Part shown: positions 14,766 to 49,000 of the stretch, piece after piece | How the letters are laid out: every line of letters begins with the position of its first letter | Numbering within the stretch: position 1 is the stretch's first letter | Assembly (NCBI RefSeq): GCF_037975245.1 | Contig: NC_092578.1 | Location: 12,940,321-13,004,320, forward strand | Origin: Apostichopus japonicus | Lineage: Eukaryota; Echinodermata; Holothuroidea; Aspidochirotida; Stichopodidae | DNA length: 64,000 bases | Reading direction: 5' to 3' | Translations under genes and position numbers: made by a program | The notes under the pieces: generated by a model | Databases searched by the model: none | What the model saw: the letters and a program-made list of their open reading frames with translations, nothing else | Told to the model about the DNA's origin: nothing

Positions 14766-17179
14766 TCACTTGAATATTTTCGAAACTTTCCCATCTGAGT
14801 AGAATTCTCCAGCTCCTGTTTTGTCTCCTTGCGGTCGTAAAGCTAACCAGACAAGTGTAACAGCGCCCTCGTCTGGTGTCTTGTGACCCTTGTAGCTCGA
14901 CATATCGGTAGCTACATACCCCGGACAAACCTGTGAAGTAAAATACCAGAAAAGAATAAAAACTTCTTTGTTGCTAAAGAGAGAGAAAGCGAGGGGGGGG
15001 GGGGGGGCTATGATAGTGTATGCCTCATTCTATTAATTGGGTCAAAATCATTTAAAACACTCATATTCGTGTACTAGTGTATGGCATTGTTTATCTCCAA
15101 CATTTCAATCCTAGGCAAATTTATTGAACTGTCACTATGGTGATCTATCAATATGGGCTTGTAGCTTATGTTGAGTTACCCATTATATCTTAACATGGGA
15201 GGAAGAGTTGTCCAGGGGAGTGGTATAAGTTAGGGATTTCACTCTCCCCTTTGTGGGAAAAATGATCTTGAAGGGTACCTACAAGAAACTGGCACCAGAT
15301 TTGAAGGTAAAAACAAAACATACTTCGTAAGATCTGAACGGTTGAAAGACAGTGTCCACAATGACAATTTGTCTGTGCTCAATTGAAGACAATAGGAATG
15401 CAAATATCGGGTACAATTACTGACAAAATGTCAAACATTAGGCAACTGGTAGCGACCAAAGAAAGTCCTGTAGTCTATGAATATTCATAATCAATCATCT
15501 TTACTTACTGAATAAACATTAATTCCTGGTCTGCTTGAGTCCTTCTGTACCTCACTGTTCTGGATCCTAGTCAATGCAGAAAGTCCAAGCTTGGAGAACC
15601 CGTAACGGGTTGAAGGTGTGAAGCCGTGCTTCTCTTCCTCGCCGGACGCCACCACCCTGCAAAATGATCATACAGTTGAGATAAGAATCCATATTTTCTC
15701 AAGAAGACCCAAACCTACAGGGAATCATTTTAGCTTTTAGATTTTATGTAGCAGTGTTTTAGGCTCTGAATGTTGTCTCTAATGTAATACTATGTGTTCC
15801 TGTGTAACGAAATCCTGCTATACATCCTTGGGCTCGTGTAGCTGCAATTGGACCATCATTTTGTATAGCATTTTATGATACGATACTGGATAAATTATTC
15901 CCTGATCCTCTACTTAGGAAGGAATCGACATATATGTTGTGATTTAACGCACACTATCATCGATTGCTAACAGACCTGCCAACCCCTCAAAGGTGATCCC
16001 ACTGTGAGACAATACATATAAAAACAGTAAGCCTTGTTTAAACCCAGGAGCCTCTCAGTGAAACCAGGGAGTCACTCTTTTAATCCAGGCAGGTGAAAGA
16101 ATTGGAGAAAAAACAACAATTATTTGAAGCTACGTAGATTGCAGCCTGTAATCTTGATATTGTTTCGAAACAATCATACAGGGATGCCAGAATTTCGGCA
16201 ATAGCCGGAATTAGGGCTTTTCCCCGATTTTGAAATTTGGTTCCGGTTCCACACAATCTTTCCGTACTTGTTGAAAAAGGCATGAGCTTTTCCTGCGAAT
16301 TTCTAGCTATTATCCTAACACACTGTAGTATACCCAAATTGGAGCCTATACCGCAAGTTTTTCTTTGGATTTTCATAAAGTCCCAATGATCTTTGGGACA
16401 TCCAAGTGCCCACAACTTTCAGGCCCTAGGGGCAAACCCTGCTGGCATCCCTGAATCATAGCAATACAATTGGGTAAGAGTGAATTATAAGCACTCTCTT
16501 GGCTTCAGCTACAGCTAATTGATGTTTTGCCACCCATGTCCCCACATGGACTGTCATAACACTTTCCTTTCAAAACACATTTCACTACATTCAGGAATTC
16601 AAAAATTGGTATAAACTAATAGACTTATTCATATACTTGCTAATGATCAACCTAAGACTTGTAAAACAGGGTCATGGAACTGTAGATTTAACTATATATG
16701 TAGTCGTTTTAAATTTAAAAACAAAACATGGAAGTCATAAAAGTAATCAGCCAAGCGCATCACTTCAAAGTACTGTTTTATACAAAGTCATTGTCTGAGG
16801 ATTTTCTAGAAATCTTGTGAAAGCTTCAGCATGATCTCTTGGCAAGGGTTGTTGTGTACAGTTTCAATTAAGGGGCAATGAACAGCCCTGTCAATCATGC
16901 AAAACGAAAAGGATAAACCAACTCTCAAGTACAAAGTGAGAATGAGTTTTATCTGGAGAGATCGTTGTTTCTCCATTTCTAAGAGCCCCTGGAATACTTT
17001 GATTTGAAATTGGACGGTATTTAACAAATCAAGAAGTTATAACAAAAGCTTACTCAACGTATTTGTTGACAAGTGCATCAAGTTCCTTACGAGTAGCAGC
17101 ATTCCTAAATGCTTCTTTCACTGGCTCACCAAGAGTGTCATATGCAAACTGAGCAGACAAACTGGATACATTCACCACT
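14766..17179 (-). CDS. Second copy of CBR1 exons 4-6 (cut off from exons 1-3)
   Basis: Exons 17179-17054, 15656-15509 and 14930-14766 are the copy A counterparts of CBR1 exons 4, 5 and 6, with the same lengths (126, 148 and 165 nt), phases and splice sites and no stop before the terminal TGA. They carry the catalytic VNVSS, YGFSK and VCPGYVATDM segments. Against copy B I count 12 coding differences: 10 silent, and two that change residues (Lys164 to Glu, Glu182 to Ala in B). Nine of the ten differences in exon 5 are silent. The duplication ends before exon 3 and I find no second exon 2 or 3 upstream, so these exons could be expressed only as alternative 3' exons spliced from exon 3 about 34 kb away, from an unseen promoter, or not at all. 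Recent gene conversion is another reason they could look intact. Confidence 0.7.
15971..16453. mobile_element. Possible old hAT-like element shared by both duplication copies
   Basis: CAGACCTGCCA at the left and TGGCATCCCTG at the right form inverted repeats at 8 of 11 positions. The copy B equivalent is about 47231-47727, so it predates the duplication. No target duplication is visible. A minus-strand frame inside (16080-16415) is not preserved in copy B. Confidence 0.4.
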
Positions 17180-17519
17180 CTGTAAATCAAAAATCATTAA
17201 TTGCAGTTGACGGTTAATATTTATTGATGATTCATGTTTAAGACATTCTATTCCCACCACCTCACGCATCCTTCCCGTGGTTATCGATCAGATAGAACAA
17301 AGACAACTTGACTTTTAACACCAAACACCAAAACCGCAATGAAAATCTTCCCATTGGTTACTTATCATACGAGAACTTGCACTCACTACAAAAGATGCAA
17401 TTACTAAATATGAAGTTCATTCAACCTGTTGACCTCAAATCACCTGTCACTTCCAAAGGAAAGAAGTCAGGGTTCACTCTCATGGATGCAAATACTTACT
17501 TGACTTTTTGAGTTCCTGT

Positions 17520-17860
17520 GTTTTACAAAGTTTTTCAGACTTTGACCACTGCTGACCTCAATCAAATGGGTTCGTGTACACAATATTAAAGGTAGATCCA
17601 CAAACCAACTGGAGTTATTGTGTATACAAGGTTTCTAACTTTGACCTATGACCTTCACAGATAACAAAGATGGACACACATACCAAGTATGAACATCATT
17701 CAAACTATACTTCTTGAGTAGTTACAAAAGTTTTCAGACTTTGATTTCTGATGACCTCATATAACCTTTGACCTTCACAATGAGCTGTATCTACATACCA
17801 ATTCATAAAGCTGCACATGTACTTTTTTGAGTCACTTTGTTGAAAACTTGTGGCAAGTAC
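17520..17860. repeat. TTGACC-type repeat, reverse relatives of the GGTCA family
   Basis: Modules TTTTCAGACTTTGACC and ATGACCTTCACA occur two to three times with ACATACCAAGTATGAA. Similar blocks lie at 27300-27540, 50640-50760 and 52680-53030. They are copies of one dispersed family of unknown class. Confidence 0.55.
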
Positions 17861-18648
17861 GCCTAGAAATGTACCCACATATATGAAATGCGAAACTTGG
17901 GCAAAATTATTTTGCTGTTTACCACGTTGCTATTCAAAATCACGTTGGTGTCTCATTGATGTCTTAACACGTTTCTTGAATTTCTTAATCAAATATTCAT
18001 GGAAAATTTGATCCGCTCAAAAAGGTTCTCAGCCAAAGTTGACTTTTGTACATTTGCTATTTATTCAGTTAATCTGTGTAATTATTCCATTACATCTACC
18101 TAATATCAAGGAAAGTATTCGTCACTTTTCTTATTGCCAGATGACTTTTGTTCGTTCAAGCTACCTAAGAAACCCTGCTTTCAGCTCAACATCTTGCATA
18201 TTACTTGCAATAACACTGAACTTATTGGAGGTGAGGTTTATGAAGCCTTTTTTATCTCCCACTTCAGTTCCTGGCATTTGTGGATGCTTTAAGTAATAGT
18301 GGTGGAGGCCAAATTAAGTATGCTTATATGCCAGGCGCGGCGGAACGGAAAAATTATTGGGGGGGCTAATGTGTGGAGACTATCTAAGCGGAGGGCCACC
18401 ATCGGTTGGCGCGGAGCTTACAAGAAAATTTTGGGTTTTTTTCAAACCCCCAGATGGCCGGAAACGGCGCTTCCCGAGTGTTTTATGCTGCGAATACCTG
18501 ACCCTAAAATATGGGTCTCAAGCCTGCAATTTCTCAGATTGCACGTAAAGTCTGTAAAAACATTGTAATTTGTATATTCGATGGTGTTTTAAGAGAGTAG
18601 CTATTACTCGTAGTGTACTCGCAAAGACGTTTTTGAGTGTAGTAAGGG

Positions 18649-20109
18649 CAGTGGCGGGGCGCGAATTTCTTTTTCCTGAACCTTTCGGGCAGTGTACGTG
18701 GAGTTTAGCCAATCAGAGCGAGGCTGTGTTGATGACGTACTACTCAGTAAAGATGGTCAGTCGGGTAAATGCGTCCCCTCAATAACATAAGGTGGAAAAC
18801 GAAAGAGCGCGAGTTCGAGCCCCCGTGTGGATTTCCCCCCCCCCACTTTTTCTCATGTTCAAGTAGTTATGTCCAAGTATTATATCATGAATTGAAAATC
18901 GATATTATAAGTTATGTCATGGTTTTCGTGCATGGTCATCTTATATATGAAAGCCCGTAGATAGTGTGGCGAAAATATATATAGTTTCTTTTGTTTATTT
19001 TCCTTCTAGATCTTATTAGAGGGAAATCGGTCTCAGCCCCAAAATGTGGTACATCCGTTTTAGGAAAGTTTATCATAATTTAAAGGCAAATGACTGCTAG
19101 AATAAAAGACAAGGGAAACAGATATTCATTCTGGAACAATTAAAGAGAGAGGATTTATTGCATAATAAAACAAGGGCAGTACTTGCCCTCTTATTTACCT
19201 AATTCGCTCATCAGTTTACAACAAACATTTGGCAGTTTCCACAATAAACCGTTAATTACTGGACCTCGTCTCTCACAAGGAGGTGCTATAGGACTGTACC
19301 ACTGTGTACAAATATTGCTGTGTACATGTGTGTAAACTGTAAGTACGTAACATACTACTGTACCAGTACTACAGTACTGAGTACAGTGTCATGTCAATCT
19401 GAAGACATTGTAAATTTGTATAACAGACAGCGATCATACATCGCCGTTTTTAACAAAAACCGATGCAAACGTCACGTAAGTTGTGCACAATGATTCAGTA
19501 TAATGTTATTAGTGCAAGGCCTATATACCTCAATACTTTCTGCTGTAGTACAACAATTATGTTGACTTATCGAATGTGATTTCCCCATGCACTTCAACAT
19601 TTGGTAAGCACGCCGCTATCTTTACTGTAGTACGTCATCAACACAGCCTCGCTCTGATTGGCTAAACTCCACGTACACTGCCCGAAAGGTTCAGGAAAAA
19701 GAAATTCGCTGGCGGGGCTAGGGGTATTGTCGGGGGGGGGCAAGAATGGTCTGTAGGGGCGCTTTCGACACTATCTAAGCGGAGCGCCACCACAGGTTGG
19801 CGCGGAGCGTACAGAAAATTTTTGAGTAAAGATACTCCCGAGATTGCAGGAAATGACCCTTTCCGGGGCCTTGCTAATTTGCAGATAAACGGAGAATAAA
19901 TAGGTGTCGTCGCCATTTTGTCGGAAAATACACCAACAGAATATGACACATGTCAATAGGTATATGAGAGCGCAATAAAATAGTCAAAAATCGCGAATAA
20001 GTAAAAAGTAGTGAAAAGCTGAAAAGGGCGCCAGCAGTCCATTTGAGTCCGTCAGAGGGGAGGGGGCATCCGCCCCTGACTGTATATATGGACGCTCGAT
20101 CCGCCACTA
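18649..20109. mobile_element. hAT-like element, middle level of the nest
   Basis: Begins CAGTGGCGGGGC, ends GATCCGCCACTA and is flanked by AGTAAGGG (18641-18648 and 20110-20117). Excluding its own insertion it is about 400 bp and matches the reverse complement of 5834-6212 nearly end to end, including the block CTATCTAAGCGGAGCG. Non-autonomous. Confidence 0.85.
18661..19709. mobile_element. MULE-like element with roughly 100-bp terminal inverted repeats, innermost level
   Basis: Ends GCGAATTTCTTTTTCC and its reverse complement begin near-identical inverted repeats of about 95-100 bp (18661-18757 and 19612-19709), containing GCCAATCAGAGCGAGG. It is flanked by the 9-bp duplication TGGCGGGGC (18652-18660 and 19710-19718). 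Long inverted ends with a 9-bp target duplication are typical of Mutator-like elements. The 850-bp interior has no transposase frame. Confidence 0.8.
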
Positions 20110-20675
20110 AGTAAGGGGATGTTGGAGAACTGGCTGAAATGAGGCAAGTGATTGGCCTAAGACGAAGTTGTGTTACGCTTACCGGTACTCACACTCACTG
20201 CTTCCACTTTTCACGGGGCGTGAAGACGCGGTTGGGGTGACAATGTGGTCTATAGCCAAGCGACGGGCCGAGGGTCCCCCAGCAATTACTAAAATGATTA
20301 CACCTATAGAGTATACGTGTGCATCGGACAGATCGACAAGTATGCATTGAAAAATGGGCAGATGTACGTTTCGGAGCCTTGGTAAATATTGGGGGGGCTA
20401 ATCAAGCATTTGCCCCCTCAACTTTTTTATTGGGGGGGCTGAGCCCCCCAAGCCCCCCCGGTTCCGCCGCCACTGTTATATGCTAATGCTTGTAATAATT
20501 TCACAACAGACATTTCATGCTAATAATGTGTCCATTTACATTTCTTCTACTGCTAGAAAATTTTGAAGTTGACTTTCTAGTTTAGGTCGACAAGTTGAAC
20601 AGTTACTGTACTTTCCATGACATTTCACTCTTGATGTTTTAGTGGATGATGACTTAATATGTTGTTAAAACTTAA

Positions 20676-21035
20676 AGGCATTGAAGACTCGCCCCAAACC
20701 CCGTGCCGCGCTCTGAAAAAGTTAACTTTCCGTTGCTTGCAAGTTAAGTTTTTTTCTTGTCGCTACAAAATGCAGACAGTCATGAAACGTGATACCTTGT
20801 TATCTTTAGCTGGACCTGAGATGTCTATCGCTGTAATGTGTGTACACTGTGCTGTTGGTATTGACCGCAACTGTATGTACTGACTGTACACTAGTGTCTA
20901 ATTACCGACAGTAGCAAGCTGTGTTTGTATTTTCTGGGATCGATGGTGGTATCTAACACTTCTGTTACACCTGATTCGAAACTAGGTCAGATTACCGGCA
21001 TAAGACGTTTCTTTTTGCGCGAGTCTTCACACCCT
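20676..21035. mobile_element. piggyBac-like miniature element, TTAA-flanked
   Basis: Ends AGGCATTGAAGACTCG and CGAGTCTTCACACCCT are imperfect inverted repeats. TTAA flanks each side (20672-20675 and 21036-21039). Copy B has a single TTAA at 49244-49247 in the same context. It is 360 bp with no coding capacity. TTAA target use is the mark of piggyBac-type transposition. Confidence 0.85.
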
Positions 21036-21167
21036 TTAAGGAAGTGTTTTTCACAGCTGTGTTAGAAAAGTAGTTAATCTTCTTGAAAAAGGATACAGTT
21101 CTGAGTCATAATGTTCTCTTTTTCAAACTGTTCCTCACAACTTATTCTTTTGTGTAAGGTAAGTGGG

Positions 21168-21300
21168 CCTGACATTTCGATCCTAGCAGGTTCTTCTTCA
21201 GAGGCTGCATAAATGACACTTATCATTCAGCCTCTGAAGAAGATCCTGGTAGGATCGAAACGTCAGGCCCACTTTCTTTTACACATTCTCTTACACAGGC
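21168..21300. repeat. Palindromic repeat GGCCTGACRTTTCGATCCTAGCAGG
   Basis: Inverted arms of about 45 bp (GTGGGCCTGACATTTCGATC and its complement) flank a 25-bp loop. The copy B locus (49390-49900) has this unit amplified. Confidence 0.8.
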
Positions 21301-21609
21301 TCTTTAGTGGATAGGCAGATTGCTAACACTTTTTTTTATTATTTTTACTTCTTTATTTGTCAGCAGTACATCTTGTATCTTGAAGGGAGTGAGCTCTGAA
21401 ATGACACTCGTTTTACTTGATTTCTGACATTCACAGCATTTGCACACATCATATTAATAGGCTCAAATTATTACAATTAGTTGAAAAGTGCTGTATTTTT
21501 ATGCTAGCATTTTGTCTAGACACTCGTTTTACATGATTTCTGACATTTACAGCATACATAGCCAATAACATTTTCAAAGACACTGCGTTGGAGTTATATA
21601 CCGTACAGC

Positions 21610-22372
21610 CAGGGGCGTAGCAAAGGTTTTTTTGTTGGGGGGGGGGTGTGGAGAATTTGATTTGCCGACGGATCTGGAAGTGGTGACTGAAATGGGGGAG
21701 GGGTCTAAGGGGAGGGGGTGTCCCCCTCCCCTTTGGCAATTTTTTAGTTTTGAAACGTCCTTAGATGCAATCTGGTGCATATTTTAAGTCAAATTTGATT
21801 TGCCGACGGATCTGGAAGTGTTGACTGAAATGGGTGGGGGCCGGAGGGGTCTAAGGGGAGGTGATGTCCCCCTCCCCTTTGGAAAATTTTTAGTTTTGAA
21901 ACGTCCTTAGATGCAATCTGGTGTATATTTTAAGTCAAATTTGATTTGCCGACGGATCTGGAAGTGGTGACTGAAATGGGGGAGGGGTCTAATTTTTAGT
22001 TTTGAAACGTCCTTAGATGCAATCTGATGTATATTTTAAGTCAAATTTGATTTGCCGACGGATCTGGAAGTGGTGACTGAAATGGGGGAGGGGTCTAAGG
22101 GTAGGGGGTCTACCCCTCCCCTTTGGAAAAATTAGTTTGAACGTCCTTAGATGCAATCTGGTGCATATTTTAAGTCAAATTTGGCACGGAAGAAGCTCCC
22201 GTTCTCCTTTTTCTATTCAGCTTTCCTTCTTTCTTCCCCTTCCGCACTCTTCACCTTTTCTCCTTTTGCCGACAGACCCAAAATTTGCCGACAGCGACCA
22301 AATTATTGGGGGGTGTGACACCCCCCCACCCCCCCCCCCCCCCACCCCCCCCCCCCGCTCGCTACGCCCCTG
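21610..22372. mobile_element. hAT-like element with internal tandem repeats
   Basis: Ends CAGGGGCGTAGC and GCTACGCCCCTG are perfect 12-bp inverted repeats flanked by CGTACAGC (21602-21609 and 22373-22380). Copy B has the empty CGTACAGC at 50317-50324. Inside are four copies of a unit beginning TTTGATTTGCCGACGGATCT, about 110-165 bp long, each followed by a GGGGAGGGGG hairpin-like block in the fuller copies. A C-rich run lies near the right end. Non-autonomous. Confidence 0.92.
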
Positions 22373-22790
22373 CGTACAGCAGTGTGCATTGCATGCCGTC
22401 CAGGCCTTAAGGTCTGCAGTTGGTAAACCATTATTTGGTCAGTTCAGTAGTTGCACAGAACAGTAAGTCGAACAATATTATTTCAAGGTTGGTGAAATCA
22501 GCTCCTGCACAACATGGTTGTCAAAAAAAAAAAGACTTTTTGCGAGATGACAAAATCTCGTGCCAAATCTCTGGATTAAATTCATTTCGATCATGGACGT
22601 ATCCATAAACAGAGTACACATATTAAGCTACAACTGATGACTTTTCCCTTAATACTAACCTTTTATCTGGAAAACGACAAACATTGTTCACTACTGTTCG
22701 ACAGGAATTTCTTTTTTACCATGTCACCAGTTGTGGCCTAGACAAGTACACACATACAAACACGCATACATACACGCACACACACCCACG

Positions 22791-23539
22791 CACACAGAAA
22801 GGTTTAACCGGCTTGTGCAGTTGTGCGACTAGAGAAACTCTTCCTTATATATAAACTGTAATGACTACGGTTTTCAACGTTTTATTTTCTTTGTAGGGGT
22901 GGGTTGGTTGGGTTTGTGTGGGGTTAGAGGTGGTGGGCTTCATTGGTTACCAAACAAAATCGTTTTCTACATTATCTCTGAACACACAAAACTTTCTTGG
23001 AATGATATATTTTTGAAAAGTTCCTGTTTTTGGTAAACTTCTTCTATTTCGTAAGTTTTAATTTACTGTTAATTATAGTCAACGTAATTTCTCCATTCTT
23101 TATGTGTTTTGAGGAAGATATACGTATCGAGTAATAAGACATATTGAACTTGATAAATGCAACCTGACAATTTGCGTGCCTTAAACTCGTATAGGGGATG
23201 ATAATCCTTATTTCATTAGATGCTTAGAATAATTAGATACCGTTATTATATTCATGAAATAGGGCTGAATATAACCTGCTATCAAATTGCACTTTAATAT
23301 CGTAATGCAGAACTCATAAGCTGGTATATCGGAATTGTATTCCGTTTAGTGAATTCATCTTCGACACTCAATGAATATTCATTTCGAACCGCAGAAAATG
23401 TTATCAACGAATCGGAACAGTTGATCAACTCTCAGACTACATGTCTTCGTCCATGCAAAGGTAACGCCCACGAAAACCAAAGCTATATTAATGTTCGTTC
23501 AGAACCTTCAACGCCCAGAGTTTTGTAAGAAGTCAATCG
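22791..23539. other. Unique spacer after copy A
   Basis: AT-rich sequence upstream of the FG-GAP repeat gene, after a CACACA-rich stretch near 22750-22795. No coding sequence seen. Confidence 0.5.
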
Positions 23540-23585
23540 ATATTTACAAACGAGTTCAGTCTCTTAGGCCGTGAGAATCTGAAAG
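23540..23585 (+). promoter_or_regulatory. Possible untranslated first exon of the FG-GAP repeat gene
   Basis: CTGAAAG|GTAAGT at 23585/23586 is a near-perfect donor and is preceded by an initiator-like CAGTCTC. It would pair with the acceptor just before the ATG at 25426, making a 1.8-kb intron in the 5' leader. The transcription start and any TATA element are not convincing; CTATATTA near 23490 is the only candidate. Confidence 0.35.
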
Positions 23586-25425
23586 GTAAGTTAAATTAAT
23601 TATTTATCTCTGTAAAATTAATTGTTTAATTTTCAGTTCTCGCTATATTATATGGTTTTATAGTCAATAATAATAACGTTTTAGGTATTTTGCTGTTTGT
23701 AAAAAGGCATATTAAAAGTAATTGGTATCAGCATGCAAAAACTTTTCTAAAAATTGTTTAAGTATTACTTTTCTGTAGTTTATGCCGTTCCAAACTATTC
23801 CTTGGAATGGTGGTGTGTTCAATTAGACAATTAATTGCTTCAGTAAGGAAAAATACGTCTATACTGTTGCATTTATCTTTATTCTACTTTTTTAATTAAA
23901 TTCAAGTTTCTAAACATTTGTATTTTTCTAAATGTTTCTATCAAATGTATACGAAATATTGTAAAGTATCTCTACATTTTCTACTTGGACATATGGCTTC
24001 TGTTTTTCATTGGATATATTGATCAAGTCTTTAAGAAATCTCCATTACAACTTCCCACGACAAGTATGTAGATATATCTTTACATATACATTTTTTCCTG
24101 TTGTCCATGCTGATACTTTAAGAAGGATAAAACTGTGCATTGCCTTGCAGTAACTGGTAAAACACACTGAGTCTCCGTGATGGCAAAGATATGGATGTTT
24201 AAGCTTATTAACTTAAACTAAAAATGTAGCTGTTAATTAGTTATGACATTATGAAAGTGCCAGATTGCCTAACGTAACATGACTGCAGTAATTGATAATG
24301 GTAATATGCAGTTTTCCTCATTCAATAATGTGAAGCTGTAGAACAACACAATTTCTCGTGTTTCGTGACCATCGATCGTCTTGAAACAGGATGTAAAACT
24401 CCCTGTAGAAAATTGTACAGTAACACCCAAGAAACAAAGAACAAAGAAAGAAATAAACAAAGAAACATAAAACAAAGAAACACCCACTAGAAAAAAGAAC
24501 AAAGAAACACTTACTAGAAAAAAAAAACGGGTATGATTATTCCCTATAGTTAAAAAAAAATAGTCTTAACTTCTTAAACGATCAGAACAGTTGAAAACGA
24601 AAAGTGGGGGAGAAAAGTTCTTTTTTAAACCTTTCTTTTGAATGGCGAAAAAAACCCAAGGAAGATCAAACTATTTAAGTTAAGTTGTAGACCTAGTATA
24701 TGAACTTCTTCTGACAATATCTACATAGCGAAGAAACATATTTAAAAGAAAAGAGGATCTTCATGGAGAAACAAAATGTTTATCCATCTTAAGTTGAAAG
24801 TGAATGATTAAAACTTGAACAATAAGCTGAATCAGATTATAGATTATATTATTTTGTTTCTAACATTATTATTCATAACTAATTGAATGAAAAACACTAA
24901 TTCATTGGTCCTTACAATTTAAACGTGATCAATGAAAGACGAAAATCAAAAGGCAGCCAACAATATAAAAATAATATAAACCACAATACAAAGAGCAAGG
25001 TGGGATGTATAAAGTATAAAATAAGTACAAAAAAAGATAAAAGTTAATTCCAAAACATCATCATCCATTCTCAATCGATGTATAAACATGGGATAATAGA
25101 GTTTCTTAATAAATAAAATGTAGTTTCTTAAACACAAAATTAGTGTTTTCAGAAATTATATGCACATGATGTGTTGTCATATTCAGATTCGTAAGGTACA
25201 GTACTATCGACGTACGATTCCCATCACTAGCGCAAGTGCCCCGGGGGGGGGGGGGATAATATACAATGCTCCGTTATATACTTCATTGTCATATCTTACC
25301 AGCAATGACTCACCACTATCCCTGATCTTTGCTTTGTCGTTAAGTTTGATAATTATCAGAAACTTAGTCAAATACATGTTGTTAAATGCATGATTTTCTA
25401 ATCGTTTTCACTCGTAGAAACCAAA

Positions 25426-26451
25426 ATGATCTTCAGCCGCACGTTTGGTGCTGTCATCATAGCTGTGGTGCTCATTATCCCGTCTGTTATTGCCAGAAGA
25501 TGGGAACGTGACCTTCAATGGTGCCGCAGCGAATCTCAACTTTACGAAGGCGACTTCAACGGTGACGGTAAGACTGATCTGCTTTGTCACAGAACGAACG
25601 ATGGATACAAGTGGATTGCTTTCGCTGATTCCAATGGCCAGTTCACGGGGACAAGCTGGGAGCAAGGCATAGGTTGGTGTTGGCATAACAACGCACAACT
25701 GCACATTGGGGACTTCAACGGGGATGGTAAAGATGACATGCTTTGTCACGATACAAGTTCCGGTTACAAATGGATCGCGTTTGCCAACAGCCAAGGTAAC
25801 TTTGCTGAACGTACTAGCTGGAAGGCTGACATCGGGTGGTGCCGTCATGCAAGTGGTGAACTTCATATTGGGGACTTCAACGGGGATGGTAAAGATGACA
25901 TGCTTTGTCACGACACGAGTACCGGCTACAAATGGATCGCTTTCGCCAACAGCCAAGGTAACTTTGCTGGACGTACTAGCTGGGAGGCTGACATCGGGTG
26001 GTGCCGCCATGCAAGTGGTGAACTTCACATTGGGGACTTCAACGGGGATGGTAAAGATGACATGCTTTGTCACGATACAAGTACAGGGTATAAGTGGATA
26101 GCTTATGCCAACAGCCAAGGCAACTTCGCAGATCGCACTGGATGGGAAGAGGGAATTGCATGGTGCCGACATTCTGGGTCCAGTCTTCACATCGGCGATT
26201 TCAACGGCGACGGCAAAGATGACATGTTGTGTCACGACACTAACGGATACAAGTGGGTTGCCTTGGCGAATTGCCAAAACAACTTTAGTGACAAGACAAC
26301 ATGGGAAGCTGATCTCGGTTGGTGTAATCATCGAGGCGCTGTCTTCTTTCTTGGTGACTATGATGGTGACTCAAAGACGGATATGTTGTGTCATGACTCC
26401 AACACAGGGAAGAAGTGGATCATTTATGCCGAGTTGACCATTTTTCAGTAA
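25426..26451 (+). CDS. Secreted protein of six FG-GAP/VCBS-like repeats
   Basis: One uninterrupted 341-residue reading frame. Residues 1-23 are a signal peptide (MIF, hydrophobic core VIIAVVLII, then SVIA). The rest is six tandem repeats at residues 26-77, 78-131, 132-185, 186-239, 240-292 and 293-341. Each runs W-x6-C, then GDFNGDGKxD-[ML]-LCH, then GYKWIAFANSQGNF. The DxNxDGxxD core is the calcium-binding loop of FG-GAP/VCBS beta-propeller blades. Two cysteines per repeat at fixed spacing suggest disulfides, so an extracellular product. Repeats 3 and 4 are almost identical at DNA level, pointing to recent internal duplication. Six blades could close a propeller (inference). An acceptor (TTTCACTCGTAG) 8 bases before the ATG implies an untranslated 5' exon. 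AATAAA lies at 26544-26549. Ligand and role are not recognisable; lectin-like recognition is a guess. Confidence 0.85.
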   Translation: MIFSRTFGAVIIAVVLIIPSVIARRWERDLQWCRSESQLYEGDFNGDGKTDLLCHRTNDGYKWIAFADSNGQFTGTSWEQGIGWCWHNNAQLHIGDFNGDGKDDMLCHDTSSGYKWIAFANSQGNFAERTSWKADIGWCRHASGELHIGDFNGDGKDDMLCHDTSTGYKWIAFANSQGNFAGRTSWEADIGWCRHASGELHIGDFNGDGKDDMLCHDTSTGYKWIAYANSQGNFADRTGWEEGIAWCRHSGSSLHIGDFNGDGKDDMLCHDTNGYKWVALANCQNNFSDKTTWEADLGWCNHRGAVFFLGDYDGDSKTDMLCHDSNTGKKWIIYAELTIFQ

Positions 26452-30883: not shown

Positions 30884-33420
30884 ATGGCAATCAAACTTTA
30901 CTGTATAATAGCCATTATGCTTTTTAACACTAATTCCACGGAAGACATGTGCGAAAATAATGTATCTTGTAAGTACTATGACATCGATTCTTTTAATAAC
31001 TTACCATCCCATAAGTGCATATCATTACTACATCACAATAGTCGTAGTCTAAAGAAACACTTTTCCGATATTACTACTTTTATCTCTTTGTTAAATCAAG
31101 ATTTTTCCATAATTGGTTTTACTGAAACCTGGTTTACGAATGATATATCTCCTCTTATTAAGATTGACAATTACACACTAATTGAACAGCATCGTAATGA
31201 AAGAAGGGGTGGTGGTGTTTGCCTTTTCATAAATAATGACTTTAATTTCAAACACCGTACAGATTTGTCTATCTTAAACAATTCTATTGAAGCTATATTC
31301 ATTGAAACCAGTACACCTAGTAACGAAAAACTTATCGTTGGTTGTGTATACAGACCTCCCAACAGTTCGAATGATGATTTCAATTTAAATATGCAGCTTA
31401 TACTTAGCACCATCGCTAATGACCACTGCAGTACCTATATTATGGGAGATTTTAATATTGATTTATCTAAAGCAAGCATATCTACTGACTTTATTAACCT
31501 TATTTATTCGAGCGGGTTTTATCCCACGATAAGTAAACCTACTCGGGTTAGCCCATCTTCTGCCACCATAATTGACAACATCTTAACCAATGTTGATTCT
31601 CTAATGACATCTGGAATACTTATTACAGATATTAGTGACCATTTTCCTATTTTTCTTCATGCCTCTGTGAATCAGAGTACAGTCAGGTATAACCCATTGC
31701 AAGTCCGTAACTATAGCAATAAGAACATCCATAAGTTTATTTCTGAAATTAAAAGTAAAACATGGGATGAAGTGCTTACTAAGCCTGACGCTAACACTTC
31801 TTATAATGCTTTCTTTGATTCATTTCAATCAACGTACAATACCTGTTTTCCATTGCATACCATCAGCAAAACAAAAAGGAGGAAAAAGAAACACCCTTGG
31901 ATAACTAATGGAATCTTAAAATCCATAGGAATCTTAAAATCCAAGAGGAAAAACCAGCTCTATAGACGCTACCTAAAGAACAATACTAATGACAGTAGGT
32001 CAACCTATACTATATACCGGAACAAACTTAACCAGATTATTCGTTTGTCAAAGAAATTATACTATTGTAATAAGATTAACAATAGCAGAAACAATATTGG
32101 CCAAACATGGACAACTGTAAAGAAAATTCTCGGACAAAATAAGCATTCCAATTATCCCACTGCCTTTAATGAAAACAATCAACTAGTTAGTGATGATAAG
32201 GAAGTAGCAAATCATTTTAATAATGTTTTTCTCAACTTGGGCCAGGAACTTGCCAGTAAGATTAAAAGCAAGAACACTGCTGAAAAACTCATTCACATGA
32301 ATGACAGCATAAACAGCCATTCTCTTTTCAGTTATCCTGTTACTGAAGCTGAGTTCATTAAAATAGCAAGCTCCAACTTAAAATCAAATAAGGCAGCGGG
32401 TTACGATGGTTTTAAGCCAGGTATTATCAAACATGTTATTCATTTTATTGCAAAACCCATGACTCACATCTGTAATATCTCTTTTAATACTGGCATATTT
32501 CCTGACAAACTCAAAGTCGCAAAAGTAGTACCTATCTTCAAAAAAGGTGACACGAGTTCTTATCAAAATTATCGCCCCATATCACTGTTATCATGTTTTT
32601 CAAAACTGATTGAACGGTTAATGTTCAATCGTATTTACGATTTTACGTGCAAGTACAACATTCTTTGTAACCAACAGTATGGTTTCCGCCCTGGTCATTC
32701 TACTGAACTTGCTTTGGCAGATGCTATTGACAGACTTTACACTAATCTCGATAATGACAACACTTGCATCGGCGTCTTCCTAGATCTGTCCAAAGCATTC
32801 GACACAATTAACCACTCCATTTTATTATCCAAACTATCTTTCTACGGAATCAGAGGAACAACCCTAAATTGGCTAGACAGTTATATCACAAATAGGTTAC
32901 AATACACTACATACAAGAATTCAAATTCTGGACTTGGTGAAATCGCATGTGGTGTGCCTCAGGGCTCTGTGTTAGGTCCTTTGTTGTTTATTATATACGT
33001 TAATGATATCTGCCATGTCTCCAACATCGCTCATACAGTCTTATTTGCCGATGACACCAATCTTTTCTTTCACTCGAAGAACGTAAATTCACTCCAAAGT
33101 ACTGTCTCTTGTGAACTGGATAAGTTCTGTGATTGGTTCTCAGCAAACAAATTAAGTATTATTATTGATAAGACTAAGTATATTGTTTTTAGTACCAAAA
33201 GAGCATTTCGTTGGGATAAGGATATTACGATGGACGGCAAAATAATTAAATGTGTAACTGAAACTAAGTTTCTTGGTATTAATATTGATAGCAAACTTTC
33301 TTGGAATAACCATATTTCATAACCATATCCTCCCACAGCATGTCCTTAGAATGCTTTATCAAACACTAGTTCTGCCACACCTATCCTATTGTACAACTAT
33401 TTGGTCTGGTACATACAGGG
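30884..33420 (+). mobile_element. Non-LTR retrotransposon ORF2 (endonuclease plus reverse transcriptase), damaged 3' end
   Basis: An 812-codon frame (30884-33322) holds an APE-type endonuclease at residues about 45-260 (FTETWF, GCVYRPPN, MGDFNID, SDHFPIF) and a reverse transcriptase at about 480-770 (FKKGDTSSYQNYRPISLL, FLDLSKAFDTINH, GVPQGSVLGPLLF, and the catalytic FADD). The arrangement is that of the jockey/CR1/L2 group. The frame stops at a TAA just after SWNNHIS. Sequence typical of the downstream thumb region (MLYQTLVLPHLSYCTTIWSG) resumes at once in another frame, so a short internal deletion with frameshift removed part of the C-terminus. Similarity then ends at a GC-rich hairpin near 33415. 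ORF1 is absent. The long open frame suggests fairly recent insertion, but this copy cannot be active as it stands. Confidence 0.9.
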
Positions 33421-36829: not shown

Positions 36830-36893
<64 letters not shown>

Positions 36894-38322: not shown

Positions 38323-38324
38323 GC

Positions 38325-39144: not shown

Positions 39145-39684
39145 CAAGGGCGGCGGAACCGGGGGGCACAGGGGGCACGTGCCCCCCACTTTTCCTCAGG
39201 TTAAAAATGTGCCCTTTTTCTACATAAAAATTGAGGTGTCTTAAGTTAGCAAGAGGCCAGGGAACCAGAATGAACACTCGGGAAGGGCCGTTTCCGGCCA
39301 TCTGAGGGGTTTGTAAATCAAAAATTTTCTGGTCAAACTCAAAGCTATTTCGAATGGAAAAAATTTGTTAAGATATAAACAAGATATTAACTCTAATTCG
39401 GGAGAGTCCTACATTAGCAACTAGCATGATTTCACCTCATTTTGTCTCAAAAGAAAACTTGTTCCTTATATCCCAATTTGCACATTGGATATTGCAGTGC
39501 TAGTATGCATTTTTCTTTGGGGGCGTTGATGGAGTGATGTGTATACGCAAATAAGATAATACAATAAGAGTTATACTAGGGTACAAAATATCAGGCTGCA
39601 TCAGTCCAATCGAATTTCTGCAAAGTGCCCTTTGATGTCGGTGCCCCCCCCCCCCCCAGATTAAAAGTGCTTCCGCCGCCCTTG
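39145..39684. mobile_element. hAT-like element, GGGCGGCGGAA family, second copy
   Basis: Nearly identical to 33828-34460 and with the same ends, but missing an internal block that includes GGTGGCGCTCCGCTC. The flanks do not show a target duplication, so the element may have been rearranged or one flank lost. Confidence 0.85.
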
Positions 39685-42600
39685 TCTAAGAGTTAAACCC
39701 TCTAAGTACAAACCTGTCAACTTTCGCTATCATACCCCCCACCCCCACCCCCAGCTCCATTTTCCGTCTCATAATTCTCTCATTCTCTCCAGCGACAAAG
39801 CATATCTCCTCGTAGTAAGCTTCGACAAGAAGCTCTCCTATTGCAATAATATCGCAGATCGCAGCAGATAACATATTACGTACCTCATATTCCTCTCCCG
39901 TTTGTAACATGTTAACCGCAATACCCTATTTATTATCTACAATTCTCACCTCAAACCCCAACCATATACATGCCAGCATGCATATGTCTCTTCTTTACGT
40001 CCCCGATAACTTGTCACTAAAAAGGTTCTCTACAAAATTCACATTCAAGCCTGTGTACAGCCTTTCAAACATTTTTAGTATATGTAATATTTATAATATA
40101 AGTTTGTTTATCCGATATTTGTGAATAATTTCCCTTCCTACGTCTTTTTCATCAGCAATCGGTCTATTCAAGGTTTTAGAGTCGTGTTTTTTTTAAATCA
40201 CTTTACCGATGTTCGAAATTCTGGAAAATATGGGGAAAAAGAAGTAGTATGTTTAAGAAACCTCATATTTATGGGGGAAAAAAGTTGCTGTGAAACATGG
40301 AATAAAACTTTAAAACAGGTAATGTTGTGTAATTAGGTCTAAATGCAAAATGATGCTAATAACTATACTTTTGAATATTTGTGTAAGGTCGAAGGGGGTT
40401 GGGGTTGGGGGAGGGGGTATGGTAGGGTGTACATCCTCACGTCCCGTGCATCCCCCGCCTATTAGTGTAAGGACTCCGGCACAGTTTCATTCACTTCACG
40501 AAGCGCCGTCATGATGACATGGTTATAGTCTCGATGTCAGCTGATTGGGGTCCAGAGTGGCTCAAGTTGTTTGGTTTTTTGCCGAAATAAGGCTGTATCT
40601 TGGGTGACTTTTCTTAAACTTCACGTAACTTCATTCGTTCGTTACCGCATACCACAATGAGAGAAGCCACATGCGAACAGGATGGGGCTTGCAAGCAAGT
40701 CTGGTACACCAAGAATATAACGCAGACTGGCACTGAAAAGGATCATACTCGCTTCCCCTAGCCCCCCCCCCCCACACACACAAATAAAATAATGTAGTGG
40801 CTCATTTTAGGTGAGCACGGCTAACATGTTTTCCTCGCTAGGATATGTCATATCTTGGGTTCGTTTCGAGACGCAGAAAACAAAGATGGTTCCACTTGCA
40901 ATATATTCTTTAATTTTCGGCATTGGTGTATAGTCTACAATACCAACATAATATATTTATCCCCTTGAAAATCTTGAGTGCTGCGTGTTTCGTCTCTTAT
41001 GTGCATGGCAGGCTATCACTAAAGAAAAAAACCTTAAAAGTGAGTTTTAGAATATACATATAGTAAAAACTTATATGACAATGTTAGACTTACCCAAACC
41101 AATTCCATATTAATTTAAAGTTCCAACGGTATGCTGATGTTGTAATTGTTATCATACAACGTATCAGGTTCCTCGCGTGTTAAACTACAAAAATAAGCAA
41201 AAAGATATCTGGAAGAGAGATGCATGTGGAGAAAAAGAAGGGAAGAAAAGTTATTATTTAATTTAAACTCGGACTACTTTTGTTATACTATACTAACGTG
41301 TATAGTATACTTGTTGAACAAAACGTAGAGTTTTGATAAGAATATCATAACCTCAATAATGATATTCGCGCTGTTAAGTTAAATCTATATTTATAGTTGA
41401 GTCTGGAACAAACACCTCATCCCATTGGCTGTGGCGTCATACTGCATGTGTCATACGCTGTACTTGTACCGGTTGCATAACTTGCAAAAGAATAATATAC
41501 AATCTAGCTATATCATATATCATATATAATATACAGTAATAGAATAATATACAAATTATAGAATAATATACAAGAACCACTTTACCTTCTGACGTTAAGG
41601 TTGAAAAATACTGATTCCTCGTCACTGGGCAATTTTACGGCGGAAAAGCTAAAAAAAAAATAATATTTTCTGAAACAAATTTCAATCCAAAAAACCAAAT
41701 TACACCCTTTTCACAAAGACAGTGGAAGCAAAATATGGGAACTCAAATTTATGTTGTTATTTTTTCTTATTGTAATAGCTAAGCGAAGGATACAGCGACG
41801 GATTTATAATTAGGAGCTAGGGCTGGTCATGGGATCGTTGGCTCCATTTTACAAAGTATCCTTCCCCAGAAATACAATTATAGACGTCAAATGATGAATT
41901 TTGAGTCAATTTTGGTCTAGAAATTAGGTCTAAGTGCAATTTGTATACTTATAGGTTTACCTTAGTTTGAGTGAGAGTGGGGAGGAGGGGTACACACCAC
42001 AGCTGACTCTATATCATTATCCTTTAACTTAATGCTACAACAGAATAGAGTTATAACTTTGACCCCTCCCATCCATAATCATATGTACTTCCGAGTCGGG
42101 TGGTTGTCTACTTCTTTATACGTTTTCAACCAACTACGTCATCCTCAAATTAAGAGGGCTATTCTTCTTTGCTTCTTTAGTCCTCATTTTATATCTAGTT
42201 GTAATCTATGACCTCTGTAGTGTATAAAAGTAAGGACAAGTCATATATGATTCGCTTAACTTCGCCAGGGCTGTGGCACCCCCCCCCGTGCACCCCCACC
42301 CCCGGTGAAGCCGGTCATGTTTTTTTAATTTTTTAATTCGGTATTTTTGTTAACGCGTCCGGTGGATGTTGGGGTGGGGATATGAGGGGCAGTATGTGGA
42401 ATATATAATATATTCTTGAATATTCGTAAACATCATGAATGTCAAAGTATTCTGTTCATTTTCATAAATCAACTTCAGTCATTCTGTAAAGCCTGAAGAA
42501 GAAGACTTGAAAGAAACAAAACATTGGGAGCAAGTATGCTGAAAAGATGTTTGATATATAGCGACATCATAGGGTACTATTGTGGCAGTTACTATATCTT

Positions 42601-43577
42601 GGTTTGTTAACGCATTCATGCATGCATGTTGACGTTGGTTTTCTTTGTATTCTTTGAATGTGCAGGATTTTACAGCCAATGTACTGCAGCATCTGTGCAC
42701 ACGACGATAGTTTGTAATGTTGGCAATCTCCTCCCTGCTGAAACGGTGATGCTCATTTGATCTTTTGTTGATTGTGAAGCAGGTACAAGGTAAGGGATAG
42801 ATCTGTAAAAGGAGGTACCTCTTTCAGCCAAATTTGTCTAAGCTTCTGATCAAGCACATTTGCAGCCATGGAGGGCTTGTATCGGTAAGTTTGCCCCCTC
42901 CAATCCTGAAAACAGATCACCGCAACTTACTCGGAACGTTTTCACCTCCACTTATTATTCAAATATCTTTTTCGGGGTCTGCTTCGATGACACCAGTTAC
43001 AACGGGTATCTCATATTACTGGCCAGCATGGAGCCGCAGGGCTAGTGTTTTAGCCACCGGTAAACTTTCGTCATATCTTTTCTGGTACCTGACTAAAAAC
43101 TTCCCATAAACTATTTTTTCTTTAATTGAACAATTGTCTTGTCCTGATTCCATTCGAATTGTGAGGAGAGAATAATGAATGCAAAACCAACCTGATCTGT
43201 TAATCATTGTTCTAGGAGTTATACTTTCTAGGCTATGTAGTCTGACATCTGTGTAACCTAACGTTTAGCTACCTCTTCGGGGGCAATATCTGTAGGGCAC
43301 ACCTTCTACCCGATGCTACCAATGGAATCATATCCTATCAACATGACAAGAGCCTGGGTTATAACTTGAGAAGTTGAGTAAACAATGTGATCCACTGGCT
43401 TCTTTATCTTTATGAATGATGATCCACAGTCTAACCAAGTCATGCATCTTTTTTCCTTTTTTCTATTCCTCATTCTCCTTTTCTGCTGTCTTATTTTTAA
43501 TAGATGATCACCGCTAGTAATTACACATTTCTTCTACTATTCAGAATTCTTAGTTTCTCCTTTTTCACAATTTTCAG

Positions 43578-43738
43578 GTCCAGCGGTCAGTTACAGCCAT
43601 TCTACCCAGACAGAGCATTCACCCCTCCAATGCTTGGAGAACATACTGTAGACGTGCTTCATACAGTGCTCGGTTTAACACCTCGAAAAAAAAGATAAGC
43701 TGAAAACTGAGGGCGCTATAGATGTACACCAAACCTAA
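43578..43738 (+). pseudogene. Decayed copy of the SUGCT last exon
   Basis: This is the copy B counterpart of 12269-12429. The acceptor (TTTTCAG) and overall length are kept, but one C is missing from the C run after the first 14 codons and one base is gained in an A run near the end. The frame inherited from the upstream exon therefore meets a TAG soon after the first shift. The exon is separated from the other SUGCT exons by more than 30 kb. It is a relic of the segmental duplication. Confidence 0.85.
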
Positions 43739-46012
43739 ACTGAAATACACACTACTGTGACATTATGCGTATATATTTCCTCATCAGTATTGACCCGTAA
43801 TTGTTACCATTTTATAACTTTCCTTTTTTTAATTACTAATTGATATCAAGGGGATTTGGGGGGGGGGGGGGTTGTTGCTGAAAAAGGATAATCATGTGAA
43901 ATTTATTTCCATAGTTCATTTACAATGATATCATCAATTTTGGAATGCAGTATTTTCAAAAATAACAACAGCAGCATGTTGAATCATGCAAAATCATCCT
44001 TCCTTTCCTCTCATGGTTGATCGCAATACGTTTCGTTTTTTACTGGAGGTAAATATGGGTCAGGTGGGGAGTGGGTGGAGGAGAAAGACTGCATCATATT
44101 TTTGATGCAAAGAACACCGTCTGACCATTAACTGTTTCTCTTTATTATTAATTTTTCGCTCAACTGGCACTGTTTTGACAACCAAATATCCACGTATCGA
44201 AACAAAGATAAGTAAAAAACAGCTCTAGTTTGTCTCAGAGCTCTTAGAGTTAGATTCAATCACAAAAAAAGACTAGAAATTGGTCATAAGGCTTCATCTT
44301 TAATAGGCAACAAATATTTTAAATACTAATAATTACAAGAAAAATATTTGGTAGGTTGCAATGTCAAAAGTAGGATACAAATGGAGCTGCAGAATCCTGT
44401 ATGATGTGATCTTTTGTGCATTCCAGTTTCACACAATAGACACTACTGGTCTGCAGAAATAAATCCCTATTGTTTTGATATTGATGCATCCTCGCTAGTT
44501 GCTGTTGTACCTTTTTGTCTTTTGACTAGGGGGAGCTTCCCTCTGTTTGCTACCACTTTCAAATGTCACGTTATCAGAAAATGCCTTGTCTAATCCACTG
44601 GTGCTCTTCGGTACCTAATAATCTGCTTTAATTTATCTCAAGAAATTGGATCACGTGTTGGCTTTTAGAGAGTCTGTTTACCTTAATATTTCAGCATAGC
44701 TGTATGTACTCATGAACATGCCCCCTTGGATGTGTTCTCATAATTGGGGCCTTTTGTTATATTTAGTAGAGATAAAAAGGCAAGATTCCAGTACTTGTAC
44801 TCGGAGCCTCTTTTTCTTAATCATTCCAAGGGGAATTCTAGCTGATATACCCATACTACAAGCCTGGTTACCATAGGGATCATCACAAGGGAAGTATTGT
44901 GCTGTTGGTAAAACAAAGGAATTGTCATTGTATAAATCATGCACGTCACAACTTAGCCATTAATGTCTACATTCTCTTCTGAATGTCAATGATTTCCAAG
45001 TCAGCCTATACGTCATACCATGATTTGAACATGGTTTTAAATCATTCAGAATTGAAAAATGAAATTGTGTAACCCATGAAGAAAAGGACACTCTTGATCA
45101 TGATTAACAAAAGTGTGGTCTTTAAATGAACAGTGTATTTGTTAATTTGTGGCTTTGTTATTTCACAATGTACACATTTTATAATAAACAATGTTTTATA
45201 GAAAATATGTCATAATTGCAAAATTCTTGAGTTCTTGTATGTTTTACCACAGTGAAATATTGTAATAAAGTAAACACACCATTCTATAGTAAAATAACAA
45301 AGTACAGTATAAAGACACACTAGTACTGTTGTTCATCACATTCCAGTAGTTTTAATAAAAAAAAATCTTCCTTGTAGTTCTCAAAATAGTAATTGATTAA
45401 ATTAAGAGACCTCTCTTGTAATTTCCCACCAAATGAAGATTAATCAGTTAAGTATATTCGCTTTTGACTGTCAGAAGATTTTTTTGAACAATGAACAGAC
45501 AACATGCACATGCATGGTTAAATGTGTTTGCCTGAACTATTATTCCAGAGGGTGCTTAAACATAAGGCTTAATTCATTTGCTCATTGTATGTAATTTTTG
45601 TTTACCGAGTCAGCAAAGAGAATGACAAAGTGTTGTTAAGACGTTTGCTTAGTTTGATTCATTTGTAAAGAACAACTATTACCTGCAAACAGCTTATCTG
45701 ATATACAAAATGAGTCTATAATAATATTAAAATATTGTACCTGTATGTCATCATTTGGTGTGTTCCTTCTCTTCACTATTCCTTCCCCTTTCGGGACACC
45801 ATTTTCTTGCATAATCTTCCTAGCAATTTTTGAAAAAACTATCTACTTTTATAAGACCAACCATTTTTCTTCCATCTAATATTAAGGGATTGTTAGAACA
45901 CAGTTACGTTTAAAGTCTGAATACGACTCAACTCTGCATGTTCAGAACCACCAAAATAGTAAGCCACGATTAAGGATAAAATGGAACATATTTCAGTCAG
46001 TGTTAGTGCAGG

Positions 46013-49000
46013 TCACTTGAATATTTTCGAAACTTTCCCATCTGAGTAGAATTCTCCAGCTCCTGTTTTGTCTCCTTGCGGTCGTAAAGCTAACCAGACA
46101 AGTGTAACAGCGCCCTCGTCTGGTGTCTTGTGACCCTTGTAGCTCGACATATCAGTAGCTACATACCCCGGACAAACCTGTGAAGCAAAATACCAGAAGA
46201 GAATAAACACTTCTTTGTTGGCAGAATAGAGAGAGGGAGGGGGCTATGATAGTTTATGCCTCATTCTATTCATTGGGTCAAAATCATTTACAACACTGTC
46301 ATATTCATGTAGTGTATAGCATTGTCTATCTCCAATATTTCATGTGTGTGGCGGCAAGCCCACGCAAATGTATTGGAAAGTCACAATGGTGATCTACCAA
46401 TATGCTCTTGTAGCTCATCTTGAGTTACCCATTATATCTGAACATAGGAGGACCAGTTGTCCAGGGGAGTGGTATAAGTTAGGAACTTCACTCTCCCCTT
46501 TGCAGGAATAATGATCTTTAAGGGTACCTACAATAAACTGGCATCACTGATTTGAAGGTAAAAACAAAACCTACTTCATAAGATCTGAATAGTTGAAAGA
46601 CAGTGTCCACAATGACAATTTGTCTGTGCTCAAATTTGAAGAGGATAGGAAAGCAAATACCGGGTACATTACTAACAAAATGTCAAACATGAGTTTGTTT
46701 GCAGAAGGCAACTGGTAGCAACTAAAGAAAGTCCTGCAGTATATGAATATTCATAATCAATCATCTTCACTTACTGAATAAACATTAATTCCTGGTCTGC
46801 TTGAGTCCTTCTGTACCTCGCTGTTTTGAATCCTAGTTAATGCAGAAAGTCCAAGTTTGGAGAACCCGTAACGGGTCGAAGGTGTGAAACCATGCTTCTC
46901 TGCCTCGCCAGACGCCACCACCCTGGAAAATGATCATACAGTTGAGATGAGAATCCATATTTTCTAAAGAAGACCCAATCCTTCACGGAATAATTTTAGC
47001 TTTCAAATTTTATGTAGCAGTGTTTTAGGCTCCAAATGTTGTCTCTAATATTATACTATGTGTTCCTGTGTAAAGAAAACCTGCATTACATCCTTGGGCT
47101 TGTGTAGCAATTGGACTTTCATTTTGTGTAGCATTTTATGATACAATACTGGATAAATTATTCCCTGATCCTCTACTTAGGAAGGAATCGACATATATGT
47201 TGTGATTTAACGCACACTATCATCGATTGCTAACAGACCTGCCAACCCCTCAAAGGTGATCCCACTGTGAGACAATACATATAAAAACAGTGAGCCTTGT
47301 TTAAACCCAGGAGCCTCTCCGTGAAACCAGGGAGTCACTCTTTTAATCCAGGCAGGTGAAAGAAGTGGAGAAAAAACAACAACTTTATTTGAAGCTACGT
47401 GCATTGCAGCCTGTAATCTTGATATTGTTTCGAAAAAATCATACAGGGATGCCAGAATTTCGGCAATAGCCGGAATTAAGGCTTTTCCCCGATTTTGAAA
47501 TTTGGTTCCGGTTCCACACAATCTTTCCATACTTGTTGAATAAGGCATGAGCTTTTCCCCGCGAATTTCTAACTATTATCCTAACACACTGTAGTATACC
47601 CAAATTGGAGCCTATACCACAAGTTTTTCTTTGGATTTTCATAAAGTCCCAACATAAGCTTAGATATCTTTGGGGCATCCAAGTGCCCACAACTTTCAGG
47701 CCCTAGCAAATCCTGCTGGCATCCCTGAATCATAGCAATACAATTGGGTAAGAGTGAATTATTAGCACTCTCTTGGCTTCAGCTACAGCTAATTGATGTT
47801 TTGCCACTCATGTCCCCACATGGACTGTCATAACACTTTCTTTCAAAACACATTTCACTACATTCAGGAATTCAAAAATTGGTATAAACCAATAGACTTA
47901 TTCATTATACTTGCTAATGATCAACCTAAGACTTGTAAAACAGGGTCATGAAACTGTAGTTTGAACTATGTAGTCATTTTAAATTTAAAAACAAAACAAA
48001 AAAACATGGAAGTCATAAAAGTAATCAGCCAAGCGCATCACTTCAAAGTACTGTTTTATACCAAGTCATTGTCTGAGGATTTTCTAGAAATCTTGTGAAA
48101 GCTTCAGCATGATCTCTTGGCAAGGGTAGTTGTGTACAGTTTCAATTAAGGGGCAATGAATAAACCTGTCAATCATGCAAAACGAAAAGGATAAACCAAC
48201 TCCCAACTACGGAGTGAGAATGAGTTTTATCTGGAGAGATCGTTGTTTCTCCATTTCTAAGAGCCCCTGGAATACTTTGATTTGAAATTGGACGGTATTT
48301 AACAAATCAAGAAGTTATAACAAAAGCTTACTCAACGTATTTGTTGACAAGTGCATCAAGTTCCTCACGAGTAGCAGCATTCCTAAATGCTTCTTTCACT
48401 GGCTCACCAAGAGTGTCATATGCAAACTGAGCAGACAAACTGGATACATTCACCACTCTGTAAATCAAAAATCATTAATTGCAGTTGACGGTTAATATTT
48501 ATTGATGATTCATGTTTAAGACATTCTATTCCCACCACCTCACGCATCCTTCCCGTTATCGATCAGATAGAACAAAGACAAGTTACTTTCAACACCAAAC
48601 GGCAATGACGATCGTCCCATTGGTTACTTACCATACAAGAACTTGCACTCACTACAAAAGATGTAATTACTAAATATGAAGTTCATTCACCTTGTTGACC
48701 TCAAAGCACCTGTCACTTCCAAAGGAAAGAAGTCAGGGTTCACTCTCATGGATGCAAATACTAACAAATGTACATTTGCTATTTATTCAGTTAATCTTTG
48801 TAATTATTCCATTACATCTACCTAATATCAAGGAAATTATTCGTCACTTTTCTTATTGCCAGATGACTTTTGTTCTGCAAGCTACCTAAGAAACCCTGCT
48901 ATCAGCTCAACATCTTGCATATTACTTGCAATAACACTGAACTTATTGGAGATGAGGTTTATGAAGCCTTTTTTATTTCCCACTTCAGTTCCTGGCATTT

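Follow-up and report, generated by a model that had tools for sequence, protein, structure and literature searches.

A partial duplicate of exons 4-6 of a CBR1-like reductase gene in Apostichopus japonicus, with divergence patterns suggestive of gene conversion and of coding constraint

The window considered here, a stretch of 64,000 nucleotides from the holothuroid Apostichopus japonicus (RefSeq assembly GCF_037975245.1, contig NC_092578.1, positions 12,940,321 to 13,004,320 of the forward strand), carries on its minus strand one complete CBR1-like reductase gene, whose exons 1-6 run from 59878 to 46013, together with a second set of exons 4-6. The set belonging to the complete gene is termed copy B and the additional set copy A. 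The exons of the complete gene are:

59861-59878, minus strand: proposed exon 1, reading MAKVAV and then the donor GTAAGT, a candidate from a pattern scan
52289-52555, minus strand: exon 2, with SGSNKGIG and NNAG, placed by tblastn and by a PDB match to human CBR1
51166-51278, minus strand: exon 3, in codon phase 2 at its end (51166), placed by tblastn and sequence
48332-48457, minus strand: exon 4 of copy B, placed by sequence
46775-46922, minus strand: exon 5 of copy B, placed by sequence
46013-46177, minus strand: exon 6 of copy B with the stop codon, placed by sequence

Exon 2 carries SGSNKGIG, the motif that binds reduced nicotinamide adenine dinucleotide phosphate (NADPH), together with NNAG; exon 5 of copy B presumably holds the active-site tyrosine and lysine, judging by the motif. 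Exon 1 is putative, being one of three candidates from a pattern scan run only upstream of exon 2, and was chosen on the reading MAKVAV|VSGSNKGIG across the junction. The spliced exons 2-6 match human CBR1 and CBR3 over their whole length, with residues 9-274 aligned to the former (PDB 1wma, E 2e-62) and an E of 1.6e-53 to the latter (PDB 2hrb is cited with 1wma as the CBR1/CBR3 structures), and Pfam adh_short matches the same spliced exons with an E of 3.5e-29. As judged by this full-length similarity, together with the presence of both the Rossmann motif (at 52555) and NNAG (at 52315), exons 1-6 with copy B are a CBR1-like member of the short-chain dehydrogenase/reductase (SDR) superfamily. 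The proposed intron 1 also contains a self-complementary stretch of 500 bases at 58427-58926, an inverted repeat of 80% identity.

The exons of copy A, in the same orientation, are:

17054-17179, minus strand: exon 4, with one difference from copy B, Lys164 (A) against Glu164 (B)
15509-15656, minus strand: exon 5, with nine silent differences and one replacing (Glu/Ala at residue 182)
14766-14930, minus strand: exon 6 with the stop codon, with one silent difference

Across the 439 coding bases of exons 4-6 the copies hence differ at 12 positions, 10 silent and 2 replacing, and the silent and replacing differences are divided as 0 and 1 in exon 4, 9 and 1 in exon 5, and 1 and 0 in exon 6. The first-pass annotation of this DNA had described two intact exon sets at 17179-14766 and 48457-46013 with these very counts; re-derivation of the coordinates and an independent recount gave the same result, and its residue numbers 164 and 182 hold once the six residues of the proposed exon 1 are counted in. 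Copy A has neither a stop codon within the exons nor a coding indel nor a damaged splice site: all five of its sites (three acceptors and two donors) retain AG/GT, and sites and phase are intact and match those required for joining to exon 3. The absence of coding indels stands against 41 indel events in the 3852 aligned non-coding sites. A processed pseudogene was considered for copy A and is ruled out, as introns 4 and 5 are still there. By itself copy A does not qualify as a CBR1-like reductase, since no nucleotide-binding half was found with it.

The homology between the copies extends well beyond the exons, and self-comparison of the window combined with alignment of the edges delimits the duplicated segment as follows:

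11457-22766, unstranded: duplicated segment, copy A, carrying insertions where it corresponds to intron 3
42776-50934, unstranded: duplicated segment, copy B

Collinear blocks of 82-96% identity lie within 11457-22763 and 42776-50931, the edge alignment extending these limits to 22766 and 50934; the self-comparison dropped rows shorter than 80 bases, which a finer comparison of the two segments restored (one piece of 25 bases being identical). The segment comprises the inner part of intron 3, exons 4-6 and roughly 3 kb of 3' flank; its two copies share one orientation and are separated by about 31 kb. Its right edge falls within intron 3, some 230 bases short of exon 3, where both copies appear CA-rich by eye. 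The intron 3 part of copy A is longer than that of copy B on account of several insertions. One of these, at 18332-20475, is absent from copy B and contains inner inverted repeats (18661-18754 and 19618-19709); it is perhaps a DNA transposon. Intron 3 of copy B in turn carries, at 49389-49955, a tandem repeat of 216 bases in 2.6 copies with inverted repeats, to which a stretch of copy A at 21139-21552 is related.

Within the window no second exons 2-3 were found: apart from the gene itself, tblastn (E up to 10) returned 12 other matches, all with E 1.5 or weaker, and a search for the exon 2-3 motifs returned a single, loose recurrence at 6214 (a second exon 1, of only six residues, was not searched for). 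Beyond the segment the flanks are not collinear, with one short match between 22764-42775 and 50935-64000, two between 22764-42775 and 1-11456, and three between 1-11456 and 50935-64000, all of them out of register. That copy A is a partial gene duplicate, a copy of just a portion of its source whose homology stops inside intron 3, is well supported, together with a later role for conversion. The same flanks bear on the proposal that copy A is an artefact of assembly, i.e., the other haplotype or a misplaced contig. Two functional alleles would likewise differ chiefly at silent sites, but joined haplotypes should keep matching beyond the segment, and the flanks share only the 1 + 2 short out-of-register matches with 22764-42775. 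Further, the window is free of N, and a divergence of 9-10% with 41 indel events in the core is high for alleles. Hence, we regard an artefact as improbable.

The divergence between the copies is far from uniform. In the aligned core (copy A 17496-13140), 272 of 3852 non-coding sites differ, and with exons included a two-state model, with rates of 1.9% and 10.2%, exceeds a single rate by 39 log units. The segmentation places low-divergence stretches at 17302-15884 and 14933-14686, plus three shorter ones. The two principal stretches are:

15884-17302, unstranded: low-divergence tract of copy A (copy B 47147-48577), from two-state segmentation and counts, containing exon 4 and most of intron 4; two low pieces were merged by hand across a short break at 16939-16877
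14683-14933, unstranded: second low-divergence stretch, covering exon 6 plus the adjoining 83 bases of the 3' flank, with an identical run of 224 bases

Non-coding divergence is 2.5% in the tract (32/1282) as against 9.6% below it (228/2385); the 185 sites above the tract, which lie outside this comparison, hold by subtraction the remaining 12 differences. The contrast is also apparent when whole introns are compared, with 54 of 1386 sites differing in intron 4 and 206 of 2161 in intron 5 plus the 3' flank (Fisher P 9e-11). The first-pass annotation's description of introns with indels and many substitutions is refined in that the substitutions are distributed unevenly. The longest identical run of non-coding sites, 243 sites spanning exon 4 with the exon sites removed, was reached in none of 5000 permutations. 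Likewise none of 5000 permutations with exons included reached the 224-base run at exon 6, which on non-coding sites alone amounts to 91 and has no P of its own. Additionally, silent differences, judged by the rates of the high-divergence regions, are low in exon 4 (0 against 2.9 expected, P 0.05) and exon 6 (1 against 6.1, P 0.016).

Because sites that were duplicated together should have diverged about equally, this mosaic points to a later homogenising of the tract, most simply by gene conversion. The pattern of divergence accordingly supports a reading in which 17302-15884, the stretch that includes exon 4 and most of intron 4, would have been re-copied by gene conversion or another homogenising process after duplication. 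Several points weigh against it. The tract borders were taken from the same data as the test, and the outer pieces of intron 3 show middling divergence of 3.5-8.7%, with one at 14%, so that the picture is not that of a single tract on an even background; uneven mutation or constraint could also produce the mosaic in part.

The mosaic helps to separate the exons in terms of what they can convey about selection. Exon 4, as part of the alike tract, says little in this respect, whereas exon 5 lies in the diverged part, and its ratio of nine silent differences to one replacing therefore suggests coding constraint. With mutation rates drawn from the non-coding alignment (flanking introns and 3' flank) and classed by CpG context and by transition or transversion, finding at least 10 silent differences among 12 has a probability of 1.4e-4 with both copies drifting; over all exons it is 0.007 if one drifted and the other accepted no replacement at all. 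The excess of silent changes thus goes beyond chance. The model with one drifting copy is the fair null for a partial copy born dead, and under it the exon 5 counts, set against 5.5 silent and 13.3 replacing or stop changes expected at local rates, give P 0.0047. Pairwise omega (dN/dS) is about 0.08 over all exons and about 0.05 in exon 5. A control examined 2135 overlapping non-coding windows, each of 148 columns and with at least eight differences: in none did a single codon phase account for 90% of the differences, and the highest share was 70%. For coding indels the flank rate predicts 4.7 and none is observed (P 0.009, or 0.10 if only one copy is free).

These observations support coding constraint on exon 5 of copy A and give moderate support to the view that translation of copy A went on through a good part of its past. 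The earlier alternative of constraint or gene conversion thereby turns into a division of the locus between the two, with the marks of conversion at 17302-15884 and those of constraint in exon 5, outside the tract. Against this stand the small number of differences (12) and the singling out of exon 5 after it had been seen. Moreover, a patch in exon 5 from a third, divergent CBR1 would yield differences at silent sites only, even if copy A were never used, and the sole coding difference in the exon 4 tract is a replacement, which weighs slightly against present constraint on copy A. The 95% bound also allows a period free of constraint on copy A amounting to as much as 37-62% of its time since the split, depending on the exons used and the omega assumed.

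A divergent donor was examined separately as the source of the excess of silent changes in exon 5, where 9 of about 34 silent sites (a rough hand estimate) differ. The rates of the high-divergence flanks predict 5.5 (P 0.10), and those of the non-coding sites as a whole predict 4.1 (P 0.023), so that such a donor is not needed, though not wholly dismissed. Four of these nine sites, as counted by eye, fall at a CpG in one of the copies, and seven of the nine have G or C in copy A, which gives no signal of GC bias at the exon 5 silent sites (two-sided P 0.18).

The constraint on exon 5 is also what chiefly tells against the suggestion that copy A was dead from birth, i.e., a partial duplicate never put to use whose exons were kept clean by conversion from functional copies, perhaps including a third CBR1. 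The mosaic divergence is in keeping with this suggestion, as are the low silent counts of exons 4 and 6, which conversion predicts, and the lack of coding indels would be unsurprising with only one copy free. But exon 5, with its nine silent differences to one replacing, lies outside the alike tract, and such counts have P 0.003-0.005 under the model. We thus consider copy A unlikely to have been dead throughout.

We instead favour, as probable, the combination of a partial duplicate and conversion, with exon 5 of copy A translated through much of the period after the split. The segment that starts within intron 3 and takes in exons 4-6 and roughly 3 kb of 3' flank is duplicated; in this scheme, ectopic gene conversion would subsequently have re-copied exon 4 with the greater part of intron 4, perhaps also exon 6; and exon 5 of copy A would have been translated for much of the time since by one of three routes. 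In the first, a complete CBR1 copy would have been under selection and have lost exons 1-3 more recently, leaving copy A as a young pseudogene. This route fits the counts as well as alternative 3' exons do, accounts for constraint without present use and agrees with the bound on free time (0.37-0.62), and the several insertions in the intron 3 remnant of copy A are compatible with it, if weakly so. However, no remnant of exons 2-3 was found in 22764-42775, so that the loss must have been complete, and this interval lacks a collinear match to the region upstream of the intron 3 edge of copy B; such a history is accordingly put forward tentatively, as a possible one.

The second route invokes alternative 3' exons: exon 3 (51166) would be joined to the exon 4 of copy B in one isoform and, across some 34 kb, to that of copy A in the other, and the isoforms would differ at residues 164 and 182. 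The acceptors, donors and phase of copy A, which fit exon 3, are in accord with this, as is the constraint on exon 5. Further, a possible poly(A) signal is present in copy A and not at the matching place in copy B:

14430-14435, minus strand: AATAAA hexamer, possible poly(A) signal of copy A, the counterpart in copy B reading AATAGT

Precedents exist in Drosophila pip and in human genes in which the C-terminus is swapped (PMC9013439 and PMC9741552). On the other hand, both isoforms would be almost the same protein, the stop codon and 3' end of copy B come first, so that its 3' end formation must be skipped, and the 95% bound leaves copy A free for a considerable part of the time. As a result, this route appears somewhat doubtful. 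The third, by which copy A recruited a 5' exon of its own, is very improbable.

As for the direction of change, human CBR1 has glutamate at the position of residue 164, as does copy B, and is uninformative at residue 182. Lys164 of copy A is therefore probably the derived state.

Other features of the window lie apart from the duplicated exons. Between the two exon sets, on the opposite strand to them, is an open frame of 341 amino acids (25426-26451, plus strand) with FG-GAP-like repeats arising from a 162-base tandem repeat and, by eye, a hydrophobic start. A frame of 812 amino acids at 30884-33322 (plus strand) is that of a non-long-terminal-repeat retrotransposon (long interspersed nuclear element, LINE), with endonuclease and reverse transcriptase domains and without an internal stop. 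Together with the introns and the CBR1-like gene, this LINE points to an animal source, probably an invertebrate. A 100-base tandem repeat in 6.4 copies occupies 7510-8149. Rfam at gathering scores gave no match in the window, and Pfam gave none on 10 of the 79 listed stop-free frames (at least 78 amino acids), the FG-GAP-like and LINE frames being scanned separately. Searches for protein relatives of CBR1 in viral_contigs returned 4 stretches, none confirmed, and those for the LINE protein returned 3 in viral_contigs and 22 in genome_contigs, again none confirmed.

Viewed against known systems, the arrangement belongs to a familiar class, that of partial gene duplicates with conversion. The review by Katju (PMC3449122) treats partial gene duplicates and conversion between paralogues as common, and the likeness consists in an incomplete copy at a new place that converts with its source; here the 5' half is missing, and a search by likeness to exons 2-3 identified no recruited new exon. 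With tandem duplicated or mutually exclusive 3' exons, such as those of pip and the tropomyosins (PMC9013439, PMC9741552), the locus shares homologous terminal exons downstream of shared 5' exons, in the same orientation and with phase kept. It differs from these in having three exons per set, with introns of about 1.4 and 0.6 kb, sets 31 kb apart and proteins almost alike, and mutually exclusive use is here hypothetical. In these sources, terminal exon sets of pip are treated under untranslated regions (PMC9013439), and 77 among 236 tandem exon duplication events in human lead to a swap of the C-terminus (PMC9741552). Compared with CBR1/CBR3, copy A alone is without the NADPH-binding half. 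No report of this CBR1 arrangement was found in the portions of the literature covered by our search.

The locus is a worked example of separating conversion from selection inside a single duplicate, the homogenised exon being silent on selection and the exon outside the tract carrying the signal. It is possible, though we think it unlikely, that there is here one CBR1 gene that can end in either of two three-exon tails, the second lying some 34 kb further downstream, past the stop and 3' end of the first, with both tails under coding selection and edited towards each other by conversion, and isoforms that differ in charge at residue 164 and by Glu/Ala at residue 182. If copy A does splice to exons 1-3, a metabolic enzyme gene would have gained a whole spare catalytic tail.

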